NCBI GenBank assembly: GCA_004843165.1
Contig: CP039459.1
Location: 1-64,000 of the forward strand
Reading direction: 5' to 3'
Origin: Acetobacteraceae bacterium
Lineage (GTDB): Bacteria > Pseudomonadota > Alphaproteobacteria > Acetobacterales > Acetobacteraceae
Length of the DNA: 64,000 nucleotides
In this document: piece after piece, positions 30,852-38,432 of the stretch
Position numbering within the stretch: position 1 is the first letter of the stretch
Layout: each line of letters starts with the position of its first letter
Program-made: the position numbers and the translations under genes
Notes under the pieces: generated by a model
What the model saw: the letters and a program-made list of their open reading frames with translations, nothing else
Told to the model about the DNA's origin: nothing
Database searches by the model: none

Positions 30852-30878
30852 GGAGGGGGGCTGCCCCCTCCCTTTTTT
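30852..30878 (+). terminator. Rho-independent terminator of bioB
   Basis: GGAGGGGG (30852-30859) pairs with CCCCCTCC (30864-30871) around a 4-nt GCTG loop, then a T-rich tail. The stem is very GC-rich for this AT-rich sequence. It starts 8 bp after the bioB stop. Confidence 0.93.
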
Positions 30879-30891
30879 CCCTATAAGCTTC

Positions 30892-31689
30892 TTACAGAAC
30901 AGAAGCCTTTTTACTTTCAATCACTTGCAATCGAAAATTCTGAGCCTTTTTGCTGTTCCCGGCACGTTCCAACGCCTCTGCCTCTAAAGACAACGCATCT
31001 CTCATAGGCGCATATTCATGATGAAGGCGACGTTTGGAAACTAATATTTCAGCCGCTTTTTCAGCGTTATTATAATTTCCCTGAAGAATTTGCTCTCTTA
31101 TTTTAAGCTCATCTTCATTCTCATTTTCGACATTATTTTTCTCGGAAATCACAGAAATATCATGAATATCCTTTTGAAGCGCTTCAGAGTTTTTCAGAGA
31201 AAAATCATTTAAACCTTTAATATAAAAAGCATGTGTTTTTATTTCGATATTTTTTGCTAAGAAACATGGCTCAAGCGCTTTTTGTGATTCTTCCCATTTA
31301 TTTTGTGCATTTAAGATAACCCCTTTTATCAACGCCAAATGCACTGAAATCTTTTCGATACCATGTTGCTGAAGGGATAATTGTGCCTTTTTAACTGTTT
31401 TTAAAGCAGAAGGAGCATCACCATTCCTAAGTTGTGAAAGCGCTAAATTATAAGAAGAAATTGTGATTGATTCCGTATCCCCTGCTTGAAATGCACGTGT
31501 AAGGGACTGCTGATAAAAGGGGATCGCAGCTTGAATACGATTTTCATCGACCATATCAGAGCCAGTTTCCATCAGACTAATATATGTATCGTCTGTCCAG
31601 TTTTGACTCGGCGTTGTTGCATGAGAGCACGCTCCCAATACCAGTAAGCCTATCAATACGGCTTTTTTATAATATTTTTTCTCAATCAT
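30892..31689 (-). CDS. TPR-containing lipoprotein in an Mla-like operon
   Basis: 265 residues with a lipoprotein signal: hydrophobic stretch then LVLGAC, so Cys about residue 21 is probably lipidated. The mature part is all-helical with TPR-like repeats, for example IPFYQQSLTRAFQAGD, SYNLALSQLRNGDAPSAL and LEAEALERAGNSKKA. The ATG at 31689 overlaps the MCE stop as ATGA, so it is translationally coupled as the last gene of the operon. A role holding or scaffolding the transport complex is inference; it takes the place where other systems have a periplasmic lipid carrier (MlaC) or an auxiliary lipoprotein. Confidence 0.72.
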   Translation of the reverse strand: MIEKKYYKKAVLIGLLVLGACSHATTPSQNWTDDTYISLMETGSDMVDENRIQAAIPFYQQSLTRAFQAGDTESITISSYNLALSQLRNGDAPSALKTVKKAQLSLQQHGIEKISVHLALIKGVILNAQNKWEESQKALEPCFLAKNIEIKTHAFYIKGLNDFSLKNSEALQKDIHDISVISEKNNVENENEDELKIREQILQGNYNNAEKAAEILVSKRRLHHEYAPMRDALSLEAEALERAGNSKKAQNFRLQVIESKKASVL

Positions 31690-32627
31690 GGTGTTGCCTT
31701 TGATGGCGGAAGAGCAAGCTGATGCGCTGTTGTTTGTTTTCCATCGCCGCCAAGAATCCACATAGTTCTCAACTGATTTGAAAGCTTTCTTAAGCTTGCA
31801 GCTGTCATCTCTGCTTCAGCCAAAACGGCAGGAAGCTGAGATGTTGTCGCATCTGTATTCTTTAGAACATTATCCACATGCGGCATCGTATGATTCACAT
31901 TAATCGTAAGATCATTAAGCTGCTTTTCCAAAGGACGGAGCTGCGCAATTGATTTTTCAACACTATCAAGAAGTGTATTTACTTTCTTAATTGTCTCATC
32001 CCTTGCTAAGAGCGCCCCAACAGTCCCCTTACCTTTTTCAATCCCTGTAATGATAAGACGTGTTTCTTTTGTGATAACCTCAACGTTTCTTGTAATCGCC
32101 TCTACGTTATCCATTGCAGGAACAGCACGTGCGTGAATATCTTTTAGCGTATCCATAATGAGATTTTGTGGATTTGGTGCGACGGAGGCATTCAATACGG
32201 CAAATCCCCAATCTAAAGGTTGCCCTCTTCCACGTCCAACATCCATATAACTCGCCCCTGCCACAATAAAACGGCGACTAATCATAACAGGACTATCTGT
32301 TCGGATAAAAGGTTCAAATTGTGGCTCAATGCTTCCAACAGCGTACATCCGTCCTGATTCATTTAAGCGAAGCTGACGAATTTCACCTGCATGTGCTCCC
32401 ATCACTTCAATGTCGCTTCCGACGCCAATACCCGCAATCCCATTCGGTGGCAAAATAAAATAAAGCGTTCCTGAGGGGGATAGCCATTGCCGGACAAAAC
32501 CAGCCTCAACAAGAGAAGCAATAAAGACAACAATGCCAATAAGGACAAGTAAACCTGTCCATTCGTTTGCATATTGACTACGAAATAATGTATTTTTGGC
32601 AGTATTTAAGCGCCTAAAGCGAGCCAC
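31686..32627 (-). CDS. MCE-domain lipid-transport protein (MlaD-like)
   Basis: 313 residues with one N-terminal transmembrane helix (about 22-43) and a single MCE domain (about 53-130: LPPNGIAGIGVGSDIEVMGAHAGEI). A long helical coiled tail follows, with a repeated Asn/Thr/Glu pattern around NVEAITRNVEVITKETR. MCE proteins form hexameric channels that ferry lipids between membranes. GTG start; the stop codon of the preceding ATPase-like gene overlaps it by one base (TAGTG). The long tail is larger than E. coli MlaD (183 aa) and resembles the tails of alphaproteobacterial MCE proteins. Confidence 0.85.
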   Translation of the reverse strand: MARFRRLNTAKNTLFRSQYANEWTGLLVLIGIVVFIASLVEAGFVRQWLSPSGTLYFILPPNGIAGIGVGSDIEVMGAHAGEIRQLRLNESGRMYAVGSIEPQFEPFIRTDSPVMISRRFIVAGASYMDVGRGRGQPLDWGFAVLNASVAPNPQNLIMDTLKDIHARAVPAMDNVEAITRNVEVITKETRLIITGIEKGKGTVGALLARDETIKKVNTLLDSVEKSIAQLRPLEKQLNDLTINVNHTMPHVDNVLKNTDATTSQLPAVLAEAEMTAASLRKLSNQLRTMWILGGDGKQTTAHQLALPPSKATP

Positions 32628-33364
32628 TAAAACATCTCCTTTTTGGGAAATAAACCATCGTCATCTAAACGAAATCTTTGACAAAATTCTAATCCTGTAT
32701 TTTCCCAAATTGAGGGATTATTAGAGGCCCATAAGATTGCGGCCCCTCTTTCCCTCGCTTGACCTAAAATATTCATAAAAGCATTATAAAAATCTGGGTG
32801 TTCCAAGGAAACAGGATTTTCGAAAAAAAGTACTTCTGGATATCCCAAAAACGCACGAATACATTGAGAACGTTTAGAATCTAAGGGAGATAATTGTTTG
32901 GGTGGCAGAAGCGGTAATCCCGGCATTCCGAATTTTACAGCCAAATCTGTTGCCGTTTCAATTAAAAGCTTTTCAGGCAAAGAAGTATGATGAAGATTCG
33001 GCCAGAGAATATTTGTTTCTGTCTCTAAAAGATCCAGCCATCCTCCGACCTGAAAAGTTCTTCCAAGTTTTCCACGTAGCGCATTTGCCTGAATAGAGCT
33101 TAATTGAGACCACTCCAATCCAAGGCAACGAATATTCCCTTGGGATACGGGAATAAGCCCCATACAAAAATCGAAAAAAGCTGAAATAAGGGGGGCGCTC
33201 TGGCACTCTATTAAAGCGCATTCACCTGGACTAAGTGTCATATTATAACGACTAAATCCGAGTTCAAAAGATGCAGGTGTCGGCACCGCATCCACGATCT
33301 CTAAGGCAAATTCCCCTAAAATAACACGTGCTTCTTTATTTATTTGGTTTCCAGTACGACTCAT
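32627..33364 (-). CDS. ABC ATPase-like subunit with degenerate active site
   Basis: 245 residues with an ABC-ATPase outline, placed where MlaF should be, between permease and MCE genes. The catalytic motifs are lost. Walker A reads ECQSAPLI (about 53-60) with no GKS/T. The signature reads LSPLDSKRS (158-166). The Walker B end reads LFFENP (179-184), with Glu in place of Asp and Asn in place of the catalytic Glu. The switch His position is Asn (about 216, ASNN). The Q-loop TFQVGGWL and the ANALRGKLGR helix are retained, so the fold is probably intact. It cannot hydrolyse ATP in the normal way; it may be structural or pair with another ATPase. ATG overlaps the permease stop (ATGA). Confidence 0.75.
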   Translation of the reverse strand: MSRTGNQINKEARVILGEFALEIVDAVPTPASFELGFSRYNMTLSPGECALIECQSAPLISAFFDFCMGLIPVSQGNIRCLGLEWSQLSSIQANALRGKLGRTFQVGGWLDLLETETNILWPNLHHTSLPEKLLIETATDLAVKFGMPGLPLLPPKQLSPLDSKRSQCIRAFLGYPEVLFFENPVSLEHPDFYNAFMNILGQARERGAAILWASNNPSIWENTGLEFCQRFRLDDDGLFPKKEMF

Positions 33365-34173
33365 TTCACGAGAACATCCACAGCAACATTTAAAATAAGA
33401 ATAGCAACAATTCCTCTTGTGAATCCCTTTGGAACAACACGTGTCATATTTTCTGCCAGTGAAACATCTAAGCCTGTTAACGTGGAGCTGATACCAACAG
33501 CAAAACCTGTTAATAAGAATTTAAGAGGAATAGCAATATAATTTGCGGGGTCAATACTCGACGTCACCCCGTATAGAAAAGACCAAATCGGCATACTGGC
33601 CATTCCCTCTGCCCAACATGCAATATATCCTGTAACAAGTGAGATAATGCTAAAAAGCATACCTAGGGTAAAAGACCCGGCAGTAAGTGCAATCGTTCTC
33701 GGCATGATAAATTGCAAAAAGGAATCTATCCCCATTGCCTCTAAGGCTCTAATTTGTCCAGACAGACTTAACGAACTTAAATCAGCAACAATTAAAGAAC
33801 CAGATCGACCAAGAAGAATGATACCGACGAAAAGCGGACCGATCTCTTTAACAAGAATACCTGAAAGCACAGAACCTGTAATTTGAGACATTCCGGCAAA
33901 ACCCAGCCAGTAAACAGCCTGCGTAACAATGCCGATACCGCTCAAAATAGCCGTTACCAAAGTACTGGGGATACCGCCCAACGTTGCCTGATTAATCGTT
34001 CGCCAAAAATCAATTTTGACACTTCTGCGCCATGAAGTCCGCACACAGGAAACCAGCAGCACCCCCCAACTGACCCCGATAAATTTCAAAAGAAAGCGAG
34101 GCTGGAAAAGGACAAACCTTCCCAATGCGGCCAATGATTCTTGAATCCAATAAAAGTGAACAGGAACTTTCAC
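33361..34173 (-). CDS. MlaE-type lipid ABC transporter permease
   Basis: 270 residues with about five hydrophobic helices. It matches MlaE permeases: LGGIPSTLVTAILSGIGIVTQ early, VKEIGPLFVGIILLGRSGSLIVADL in the core, and QIRALEAMGIDSFLQFIMPRTIAL, the coupling-helix region that contacts the ATPase. The GTG start overlaps the stop of the sensor gene by four bases (GTGA). It is probably an inner-membrane partner of the MCE protein downstream. Length is typical (about 260). Confidence 0.88.
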   Translation of the reverse strand: MKVPVHFYWIQESLAALGRFVLFQPRFLLKFIGVSWGVLLVSCVRTSWRRSVKIDFWRTINQATLGGIPSTLVTAILSGIGIVTQAVYWLGFAGMSQITGSVLSGILVKEIGPLFVGIILLGRSGSLIVADLSSLSLSGQIRALEAMGIDSFLQFIMPRTIALTAGSFTLGMLFSIISLVTGYIACWAEGMASMPIWSFLYGVTSSIDPANYIAIPLKFLLTGFAVGISSTLTGLDVSLAENMTRVVPKGFTRGIVAILILNVAVDVLVK

Positions 34174-36524
34174 CAGTGACCTGCCAAAATATAAGAGGTT
34201 GAGACACCGGTATCCGGAAGATAAAAATTGCCTCTTGGACGGAATAAATATCTGTCTTTTAATTTTTGATGTGCTGCCTCAGAAACTTGAATAACACCCT
34301 CAGCAGGCGCACTTTCTGCAAGTAGCTCGGCCGTTGAAAGAGATTTCCCCCAGAGATTAAAGACTTTGGGATCATCTCCAAGATGAGAAACCAAAGCAAC
34401 ACCTGTATCAATTCCAATACTAAAAGAAATACGTGTGTTCTTTTGCGCTAAAATAGAGAGGCATTTTTCTCTGATTTGTAAAGCCGCTTCAGCAAGCTTC
34501 ATAAGTGCACTGGGATCTGCTTCCAAAGAACAATTTCCAAGAAAAACAACACGATTTCCTAAAACTTGCAGGGCAAAAATAGAAAGTCCTTTGCAAATCG
34601 TCTGGATTGTTTCCGCCAACAGCTCAACCAACGCAATATTATTTTCATTGGCATCATGTTGATTGGAATAGGAGCGATTTAGCTTTAAGACCATTACAGG
34701 AACATCTGGATAGAGTCCTGAGCTGGGAGCGTCACTTGCATTTTCTTTAGGATCAATAAGAAAGCCTGGTAAATGCTTAAAATGCCCTTCAGTCGCAGGG
34801 AAAGTTATGCTCCCATTAATCTTATCGTCTTTTTTCGGATAATTACTTGTCGAAAAACGTAATCCCATGATGGCCGAAACAAGAGAAATTACCAGATCAC
34901 CTTGCTCTAAATATTTAGGTGTTGCCAGTGTTAAAGCGCCTATAGCTTGATGCATATTTAAAATAGGGTAAAAAGTAACATTTCCCTCTAGACCTGCTTG
35001 AGAAACCAAACGTGAGAGCCCCTCTACCCCCTGATAATTGCTCGTTGTCGCAGAACCAATTTCAATAGATAAAGAATGCCCATCTGCCAATGCTTGAAAA
35101 AGATTTTGATTGACACCACGCTCAAGCTCCATGCCGACAGCATGAACGCTTCTTTTAACATCATATAAATCTTCACAGACCAAAGAATTTCCATCAGGCA
35201 ATAAACGCCAAATCGCCACTCTTGAAGAGCCTGTCATACTGGCAAGCGTTTCTGTTAAGATAGGAATATCACGATCCGGACTTAAAATACCGGGAGTAGT
35301 CGCAATTTTAAGAAGTGTTGCACGTTCTCTTTCTTCTTTTTGATTACTTTCAATTTCTTCTTTTTTATAGCGACGTATCCGGCTCCCCTGATACATGAGT
35401 GCCACAGATAAAAATAAGGCCAGTAAAATAATAACAGACGAAGAGAAGAAGCTCTGCTTTTTTGTCATTTGAATGAAATTAGCGAACTCTTTTTCTGGGG
35501 CATTTAAAATAAGCACCCAATTTCGTTGCGTCTCCGGAAGGTCAGCTGTAATCGCAATATAATTCTGCTTTCGCGCAACAATCATATGCGCACCAGGACC
35601 ATTCACACGAAAAATATTTAAAGCTCTCGTAAAAACAGGCTGCGTTACAGGATTAAGAAAAACATCTGTAGCATCAAAATCAGGACTATTCAGTCCGATC
35701 ATATTATGCCCAGCAATCACCTTCCCGTTACGATCAACAATGACGGCCTGTCCTGTTTTTCCGATCGTTAAACTATTAATAAAATCACTTAACTCATTCA
35801 GAGAAATATTAATCGCAAAAACTTTTCTGTTTCCATGCGCATCGGAATAGGCTGTTGAGGCTGTAATTAAAAAATGATGCGTATAAGAATCCCAATATGG
35901 CGATGTCCAGTGGACGGGATTAGCCGCATCTCCTTCAGACGCCTCTTTTAAAAGACCACTGACAGCATTGCTGTACCAATTATCTTTTCTAGGATCTGTA
36001 TATGGAATATTTTTATTCGAGGTTTCAGAAACTTTCTCGCCGTCAGGTGTGACAATATGCTGTGTATAGTCTGCGGCGGCTTCATCGGAGTGTGGTGAAA
36101 TGGAAATTTCTTTAAAATTCTTGCCATCTTTGGCGACAATCCAGAGCTCCCCATCCTGATTTGCAAGATAAAAACTATCAACTTGATGGGAAAGCCTTAG
36201 AATAGAACGTGTAAATAGCTTAAAATAAGTGACATTGTCCTCTTTGGAGGTGCTGTCCAGCATATCATGCGCAAGGCGGCCACTTGCATGTGCAGGTGCT
36301 AAATAGTCTGTTACTTTCTGAGCAACATAACGCTGTTGGCTCTCCATGAGTTTTTTAGAAAGCGCAACCGTCCCTGTATGTGCCACCTCATAGTTTTTCC
36401 ATGAGGCCCAAACAATGGTCCCAATAACGATAGCAACGCTAACGATTGGAAGACATATCGCAAGAATTTGCCGTCTATGGGCTTGCAAGTCAGAATAAGG
36501 ATCAATAATTTCAGGTGTCGGCAC
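34170..36524 (-). CDS. Membrane sensor: dCache, GAF and degenerate class III cyclase
   Basis: 784 residues. TM1 (about 19-40), a periplasmic sensor of the double-Cache type (about 42-345, with YTDPRKDNWYSNAV, SPYWDSYTHHFLITAST and ISLNELSDFI), TM2 (about 355-375), a GAF-like domain (about 400-560) and a C-terminal class III cyclase fold (about 605-775, with GIDTGVALVSHLG and VFNLWGKSLSTAELL). The catalytic residues are missing: the first metal-Asp segment reads VMVLKLN, the second LGNRV (Asn for Asp), and the Asn/Arg pair of the last motif is Ser/Leu. It is likely a pseudo-cyclase that senses a periplasmic ligand and signals by contact. It is the first gene of the Mla-like operon, with a GTG start. 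Confidence 0.72.
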   Translation of the reverse strand: MPTPEIIDPYSDLQAHRRQILAICLPIVSVAIVIGTIVWASWKNYEVAHTGTVALSKKLMESQQRYVAQKVTDYLAPAHASGRLAHDMLDSTSKEDNVTYFKLFTRSILRLSHQVDSFYLANQDGELWIVAKDGKNFKEISISPHSDEAAADYTQHIVTPDGEKVSETSNKNIPYTDPRKDNWYSNAVSGLLKEASEGDAANPVHWTSPYWDSYTHHFLITASTAYSDAHGNRKVFAINISLNELSDFINSLTIGKTGQAVIVDRNGKVIAGHNMIGLNSPDFDATDVFLNPVTQPVFTRALNIFRVNGPGAHMIVARKQNYIAITADLPETQRNWVLILNAPEKEFANFIQMTKKQSFFSSSVIILLALFLSVALMYQGSRIRRYKKEEIESNQKEERERATLLKIATTPGILSPDRDIPILTETLASMTGSSRVAIWRLLPDGNSLVCEDLYDVKRSVHAVGMELERGVNQNLFQALADGHSLSIEIGSATTSNYQGVEGLSRLVSQAGLEGNVTFYPILNMHQAIGALTLATPKYLEQGDLVISLVSAIMGLRFSTSNYPKKDDKINGSITFPATEGHFKHLPGFLIDPKENASDAPSSGLYPDVPVMVLKLNRSYSNQHDANENNIALVELLAETIQTICKGLSIFALQVLGNRVVFLGNCSLEADPSALMKLAEAALQIREKCLSILAQKNTRISFSIGIDTGVALVSHLGDDPKVFNLWGKSLSTAELLAESAPAEGVIQVSEAAHQKLKDRYLFRPRGNFYLPDTGVSTSYILAGHW

Positions 36525-37547: not shown

Positions 37548-38432
37548 TTGATCGTTCGTCCCTTTTCTGGTGCTGCAATCCTTTTTAAAGAAGCTCTTCC
37601 CATTTTGCTTCTCTTAACAGTCTGGGATCTTTTAGTGGTTATTGGATTCCTTGTTTTTAATTTCGACTGGCTTAATCAATCAGATATTCCTATTGCCCTT
37701 TTAGGGTCTGTTTTGGCCATTATTGTTGGGATTCGCAATAATGCAGCCTATGACCGCTGGTGGGAGGCTCGAAGCTTATGGGGAAGCGTGACAAATAACT
37801 GTCGGAATTTTGGCCGAGATGTCATGTCTTTGCTTGATGGCGACATCCGATTGATGAAAATGATTGCGCTCTATCCTGAATTTCTTAAATGTGGATTGCA
37901 AGAATCTTTGATTTCAGAACCCATTCAATCTGAGTTGAAAGAACTTATTCCGTTAGAAAGTGATTCTGTTCTTAGTGCCGCCAATCCAACAGATATGCTC
38001 CTTTGCAAAATTGGTATCCTCTCTTCGGAGCTAGCGTCAACAAAACAAAATGTAATTGGTATTTTACCAACATTGGATCGTTCACTTTTTGCTTTGGCAA
38101 ATGCGCAAGGCGGACTGGAGAGAATTAGTAAGACCCCTCTTCCTGTTCAGTACACGTTTTTACCAGCTGTCATTACACGTGTTTTTTGTATTATCTTACC
38201 CCTCACTGGTGTGCAGGCGCTTGGATGGTGGACCCCATTAGGATCAAGCTTTATCGGTGTATTCTTTGAAATGCTCAATCAGAGTGGAATTTCCTTACAG
38301 AACCCTTTTAGCAAAGGGCCTCATGCCCTTCCTCTACAAACAATCTGCAATACGATTAAAACAAATATTTATGAGATGACAGGTTGGAAACCCCCTGAAC
38401 CTACCCCTATTATTGGAGGAATACGCTCTTAA
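37548..38432 (+). CDS. Bestrophin-family ion channel protein
   Basis: 294 residues of the bestrophin/UPF0187 (YneE) family, anion or cation channels of the inner membrane. The hallmark region is IVGIRNNAAYDRWWEARSLW with NCRNFGRD, and the later FLPAVITRVFCIILPLTG segment plus NPFSKGPHALPL closely follow bacterial bestrophins. The start is a TTG at 37548 with AAGGAA ten bases upstream; no in-frame ATG precedes the conserved N-terminus. It probably stands alone. Confidence 0.9.
   Translation: MIVRPFSGAAILFKEALPILLLLTVWDLLVVIGFLVFNFDWLNQSDIPIALLGSVLAIIVGIRNNAAYDRWWEARSLWGSVTNNCRNFGRDVMSLLDGDIRLMKMIALYPEFLKCGLQESLISEPIQSELKELIPLESDSVLSAANPTDMLLCKIGILSSELASTKQNVIGILPTLDRSLFALANAQGGLERISKTPLPVQYTFLPAVITRVFCIILPLTGVQALGWWTPLGSSFIGVFFEMLNQSGISLQNPFSKGPHALPLQTICNTIKTNIYEMTGWKPPEPTPIIGGIRS

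Follow-up and report, generated by a model that had tools for sequence, protein, structure and literature searches.

A conserved MCE/MlaE operon of Acetobacteraceae with an ABC-type subunit that lacks working catalytic motifs

Can a bridge of MlaE and MCE proteins work passively, or under the control of a ligand? This question is raised by a five-gene operon of an Acetobacteraceae bacterium in which the ATP-binding cassette (ABC) subunit, a protein of 245 amino acids (aa), is an ABC fold without working catalytic motifs. We refer to this subunit as the pseudo-NBD, after the nucleotide-binding domain (NBD) of ABC transporters. That it is under purifying selection, and not decaying, is strongly supported. 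The operon lies on the minus strand at positions 30892-36524 of the window, by which we mean the whole 64,000-nucleotide stretch analyzed here (contig CP039459.1, positions 1 to 64,000; assembly GCA_004843165.1). The host genome measures 1.92 Mb and forms one contig. Each of the five open reading frames (ORFs) overlaps the next by 1-4 bp, and the gene order is dCache-TM-GAF-cyclase-like protein (TM, transmembrane), MlaE permease, NBD homologue, MCE protein and TPR lipoprotein:

34170..36524, minus strand: dCache-TM-coiled coil-GAF-cyclase-homology protein, 784 aa, TM segments at residues 16-43 and 356-383 (Pfam, AlphaFold (AF2) model)
34170-34173, minus strand: 4-bp overlap of the pseudo-cyclase and MlaE genes
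33361..34173, minus strand: divergent MlaE-family permease, 270 aa, five hydrophobic segments (Pfam MlaE, hydrophobicity)
33361-33364, minus strand: 4-bp overlap of the MlaE and NBD genes
32627..33364, minus strand: pseudo-NBD, ABC ATPase homologue without catalytic residues, 245 aa
32627, minus strand: 1-bp overlap of the NBD and MCE genes
31686..32627, minus strand: MCE-domain protein, 313 aa, one N-terminal TM segment (residues 19-47) and a long C-terminal helical tail (Pfam MlaD)
Start of the TPR gene, minus strand: 4-bp overlap with the MCE gene, given the ATG start at 31689
30892..31689, minus strand: TPR lipoprotein (TPR models; lipobox LGAC)

For the TPR gene we favored the ATG at 31689, a longer ORF starting with GTG being less likely. 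A preliminary description of this DNA had proposed overlapping permease, ATPase-like, MCE and TPR-lipoprotein genes, and these ORFs with their overlaps were confirmed. The four genes do lie within 30892-36524, but that description had overlooked the fifth, at 34170-36524, which encodes the conserved 784-aa pseudo-cyclase.

Lost motifs and conservation of the pseudo-NBD

No Pfam family matched the 245-aa protein at E <= 1. NCBIfam models of the FtsE/DevA/MlaF type matched it (FtsE at 8e-9, MlaF at 7e-7), and a profile search of the PDB returned ABC ATPases at 6e-18. Its AF2 model is an ABC NBD with a predicted local distance difference test score (pLDDT) of 87 and a predicted template modeling score (pTM) of 0.85, for which Foldseek gave E. 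coli MlaF as the best match (E 8e-15). VIA-align returned Z values of 21-24 against the active NBDs of LolD, FtsE, MacB and MlaF, a Z value of 22.7 accompanying the match to MlaF. We then read the motifs from an alignment with canonical MlaF of Acetobacteraceae:

33182..33205, minus strand: Walker A equivalent CQSAPLIS, residues 54-61, with Ile60 at the Lys position
32984..32995, minus strand: LHHT motif, residues 124-127, after the Q-loop, near-invariant and family-specific
32867..32893, minus strand: signature equivalent LSPLDSKRS, residues 158-166, with near-invariant Asp162
32813..32833, minus strand: Walker B equivalent VLFFENP, residues 178-184, with near-invariant Glu182 for Asp and Asn for the catalytic Glu
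32717..32731, minus strand: H-switch equivalent WASNN, residues 212-216, with Asn215 for His

The protein thus has none of the four canonical elements, namely the Walker A GxxGxGK[ST], the signature LSGGQ or LSGGM, the Walker B Asp followed by the catalytic Glu, and the His of the H-switch. The motifs given in the preliminary description (a Walker A without Lys, LSPLDSKRS, LFFENP and Asn for the switch His) were exact. Its statement that the fold and the Q-loop are kept holds for the window protein, but the Q-loop Gln is present in just 17 of 63 family members.

The 63 homologues in the alignment, of which 41 remain at 80% non-redundancy, came from Acetobacteraceae genomes, named genomes and wider scans, and include the lowest-scoring unbroken members of the family scan. 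None of them has the Walker A Lys or the glycine loop, and only two keep the switch His; the Walker B Asp is replaced by Glu in 61 out of 63, and the two-Gly core of the signature is not retained across the family. The family has near-invariant positions of its own (W85, R97-G98, G101-R102, W109, H126, G149, D162, R170-A171 and E182), and its specific near-invariant motifs are RGRIGR, LHHT, GLPGLP and the Glu at the Walker B Asp position. These family-specific residues sit in the part that faces the membrane domain in ABC transporters. Pairwise ratios of nonsynonymous to synonymous substitution rates (dN/dS) lie at 0.006-0.05 for Gluconobacter and Asaia pairs, and the neighboring permease and MCE genes have ratios that are about equally low; one pair of metagenome-assembled genomes (MAGs) with very low divergence gave 0.33. 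In the tree, the pseudo-NBD clade is monophyletic (support 100/99) on a long stem. The tree gave no placement of the clade among ABC proteins (long branch), and descent from MlaF was not obtained.

Recent gene decay can be practically discounted as an explanation. Broken copies of the operon in two relatives (L123 and L124) would fit it; in both, the operon is fragmented, with several genes broken together, and the fragments apparently reflect independent losses of the operon. Decay is rejected because the Walker A Lys is missing from all 63 homologues, dN/dS is low (mostly < 0.05) and the clade is monophyletic across phyla. The preliminary description had argued against decay on the grounds of tight gene coupling, and had taken close relatives with an intact Walker A as the case that would overturn this; no orthologue with an intact P-loop was found among the aligned homologues. 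We are highly confident that the pseudo-NBD belongs to a conserved system.

Partner proteins, gene order and canonical Mla genes

The permease is a clear member of the MlaE family (Pfam PF02405, 5e-36, 124.6 bits against a cut-off of 22.5). In MlaE, the coupling helix between TM2 and TM3 touches the ATPase (PMC7790496). We compared the columns of this helix in 43 divergent MlaE proteins and in 14 canonical or STAS-fused ones:

33718..33759, minus strand: coupling-helix region of the permease (GQIRALEAMGIDSF), with G-Q-x-R/K in place of canonical [DE][QE]ID (column counts)

While canonical and STAS-fused permeases carry [DE][QE]ID, 36 of the 43 divergent proteins have Gly at the first position and 34 have Arg or Lys in place of the Asp. 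Judging from these columns, the permease may have adapted to the pseudo-NBD rather than to canonical MlaF, in which case such a change of the coupling helix would be expected. The MCE protein contains a single MCE domain in Pfam. It matched MlaD (PF02470) at 4e-5 with 24.1 bits, the cut-off being 25.1, and reached 26.3 bits in the genome-wide search. No STAS protein is encoded among the five genes or fused to the operon MlaE, the rest of the genome not having been searched for one.

The 784-aa protein matched dCache_1 (1e-13), Guanylate_cyc (1e-12) and GAF (0.011) in Pfam, and its cyclase-homology domain belongs to PF00211 (48.2 bits, cut-off 21.9). In its AF2 model (mean pLDDT 75), the cyclase part matches the Rv1625c cyclase and the dCache part resembles the amino-acid chemoreceptors Tlp3, Mlp24 and PctA. 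The catalytic positions of cyclases (metal Asp pair, purine Asp, transition-state Asn and Arg) are occupied by K614, N657, N723, S730 and L734. Among 17 members, the first metal Asp is present in none, the purine Asp is Asn in all and the transition-state Arg survives in one, being gone from the other 16. Read from these positions, the cyclase-like domain is catalytically dead in all 17 members checked. In the amino-acid dCache motif, an Arg binds the carboxylate of the ligand (PMC10104139). The Arg that we take to be its equivalent, from our reading of an R-x-W-Y pattern, occurs in 14 of the 17 proteins and is Asp in this organism.

Within a sample of 299 Acetobacteraceae genomes, 90 carry the pseudo-NBD (35 out of 102 genera). 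It is scarce in the rest of the class, where we found it in only two sampled genomes outside the family, plus named MAGs. Except where a contig stops within the operon, Gluconobacter and Asaia have the order sensor-MlaE-NBD-MCE-TPR, which recurs unchanged in other alphaproteobacteria and in five MAGs of Desulfobacterales/Deltaproteobacteria. Both the long-tailed MCE protein and the TPR lipoprotein are strictly retained in the unit.

The host genome of the window holds an intact canonical MlaE-MlaF pair at about 1,098,600-1,100,300, about 1.07 Mb from the operon; this is the second, intact mlaF for which a search had been proposed in the preliminary description. Its MlaF (about 1,099,430-1,100,305; L050:5431-6306) has intact GGSGTGKS, LLLDEP and ITHD. 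Since this pair is present, the ordinary Mla ATPase is available and the pseudo-NBD is an addition to it. A separate locus with STAS-fused MlaE and intact MlaF is found in many pseudo-NBD genomes. The canonical MlaF of this genome reads SASGGMQRR instead of ELSGGMQKR in its signature and bears an insertion relative to the MlaF of relatives, and the coupling helix of its MlaE is DQIS, not DQID. A PF00005 match at 300 kb, considered as a second mlaF, proved to be an amino-acid-type ATPase adjoining its own permease. Other MCE-domain genes of this genome encode two short single-MCE proteins, at 1678911-1679144 and 79642-79866, both away from the canonical pair, and a three-MCE Pqi/Let-like protein at 1261586-1262674.

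Around the operon, a G+C-rich hairpin at 30852-30871, between the operon end and a convergent biotin synthase gene, was scored as a terminator; the T-run of this hairpin is on the (+) strand, that of the biotin synthase gene. A promoter scan yielded no more sites than shuffled sequences, and the operon promoter was not located. The gene at 37548-38432 encodes a Bestrophin-like membrane protein, a name given by eye on the basis of the translation; such a gene also occurs near the operon in some relatives (L031, L033), together with YgfZ- and biotin-synthase-like genes. A plasmid search gave no match.

Candidate modes of action

In E. coli, the mlaF K47R mutation abolishes the ATPase activity of MlaFEB and does not complement (PMC5016091), in line with the earlier claim that MlaF needs its catalytic residues. 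A complex resting on the pseudo-NBD alone should therefore not run the Mla hydrolysis cycle. The MCE systems that PqiA and LetA serve do without an ATPase domain (PMC12436622). Since such ATPase-free MCE systems are known and no hydrolysis cycle is expected, we favor an MlaE/MCE bridge with the NBD as a structural, signal-transmitting base. A pseudo-NBD dimer under an MlaE dimer would act as a coupling element rather than a motor, and lipid leaving MlaE would travel through a hexamer of the MCE protein and along the tail until it reached the outer-membrane TPR lipoprotein, moving without ATP hydrolysis by the complex, either down its gradient or by means of another energy source. The dCache-GAF-pseudo-cyclase protein would sense a periplasmic ligand through its amino-acid-type dCache fold and pass the signal to the pseudo-NBD, so that the gate opens or closes. 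The lipid machine of the operon is probably independent of ATP hydrolysis and gated by the sensor protein. The five-gene unit is kept across phyla, occurring both in acetic acid bacteria and in some sulfate reducers; we consider the chances about even that it forms a distinct and ancient MCE/MlaE trans-envelope lipid system with an obligate pseudo-ATPase as structural or signaling adaptor. The full scheme of a receptor-operated lipid gate, in which the dead cyclase and the dead ABC ATPase have both been repurposed to relay the signal of a sensor of periplasmic ligand and so open an MlaE/MCE bridge that moves lipids without ATP hydrolysis, is put forward tentatively.

Some observations weigh against our favored reading. 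All carriers of the pseudo-NBD in a 60-genome sample also have a canonical-scoring MlaE, and MlaF is intact in the carriers checked, so that an ATPase could be supplied in trans, the rival of most concern. Moreover, two genomes (L117 and L118) carry MlaE-NBD-MCE-TPR with no pseudo-cyclase gene directly upstream, and the sensor may therefore be dispensable. The presence of canonical Mla genes speaks for a borrowed motor, in which the MlaF encoded at about 1.10 Mb drives the system. This MlaF would either take the place of the pseudo-NBD or join it in a heterodimer, of which the pseudo-NBD would be the regulatory half. Mycobacterial Mce loci, which share the single ATPase MceG, offer a parallel. 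The coupling helix of the divergent MlaE, however, no longer has the canonical acidic residues and has acquired Arg or Lys, as would fit co-evolution with the pseudo-NBD; borrowing is disfavored because the helix has diverged together with the NBD. In addition, Walker A is gone from all pseudo-NBDs, unlike the degenerate halves of heterodimeric ABC exporters, which in all cases known to us keep it. We regard a borrowed motor as rather unlikely. The preliminary description had left open whether the transporter works without ATP hydrolysis, borrows an ATPase or contains a regulatory subunit; the best fit is a transporter that runs ATP-free or a subunit that serves as regulatory adaptor.

No better chance is given to a complex that senses rather than transports, with the MlaE-like protein, the pseudo-NBD and the pseudo-cyclase monitoring the state of lipids or the envelope and controlling, for example, canonical Mla. 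An operon that combines a dCache sensor with two catalytically dead domains does resemble signaling more than pumping, but the strict retention of the long-tailed MCE protein and the TPR lipoprotein is that of transport bridges, and the operon encodes neither a kinase or GGDEF domain nor any other output domain. Far less probable is a working ATPase whose nucleotide site, of a non-canonical kind, is formed by RGRIGR, Asp162 and Glu182. The strong conservation of these charged residues, with Glu for the Walker B Asp in nearly all members, would suit such a site; the Walker A Lys and the glycine loop are nonetheless absent throughout, and K47R alone suffices to abolish activity in MlaFEB.

Relation to known systems and significance

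The operon resembles Mla (MlaFEDB of E. coli, A. baumannii and P. aeruginosa) in combining an MlaE-family permease, an ABC-fold subunit and an MCE protein. It differs in its catalytically dead NBD, in the absence of an MlaB or MlaC gene, in the longer MCE protein with a helical tail, and in the added TPR lipoprotein and dCache pseudo-cyclase. We did not class it as Mla because it lacks the catalytic features of Mla that were tested. Brucella Mpc (MpcEFDA), a chimeric Mla-Pqi system, likewise encodes a permease, an ABC subunit, a long-tailed MCE protein and an outer-membrane lipoprotein in one operon (PMC12436622), but its permease is STAS-fused, its MpcF is homologous to MlaF and its lipoprotein is PqiC-like. 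PqiABC and LetAB share MCE transport with an inner-membrane protein that has no ATPase domain (PMC12436622); PqiA and LetA, however, are not MlaE-type permeases, and no ABC-fold subunit accompanies them. Instead of a PqiA/LetA-type membrane protein and a multi-MCE subunit, the operon has an MlaE-type permease and a single MCE domain. Profile and model alike show the C-terminal domain of the 784-aa protein to be a homologue of class III adenylate/guanylate cyclases of the Rv1625c type. In the members checked, the first metal Asp and the purine Asp are lost, and so is the transition-state Arg in all but one. Searches of open-access papers, most subscription papers lying outside their reach, turned up no account of an MCE/MlaE system in which the ATPase is degenerate or the partner is a pseudo-cyclase.

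We know of no description of a pseudo-ATPase and a pseudo-cyclase paired in one operon. If the receptor-operated gate is true, this would be, to our knowledge, the first case of an MlaE-type transporter with an NBD that is by design a pseudo-enzyme. It is debated in which direction, and with what source of energy, Mla-type systems transport lipids, and a widely conserved ATPase that has been disarmed but kept is a natural experiment on the roles of the NBD beyond hydrolysis. As the operon is found in Gluconobacter and Asaia, which are readily handled in the laboratory, it is open to experimental testing.

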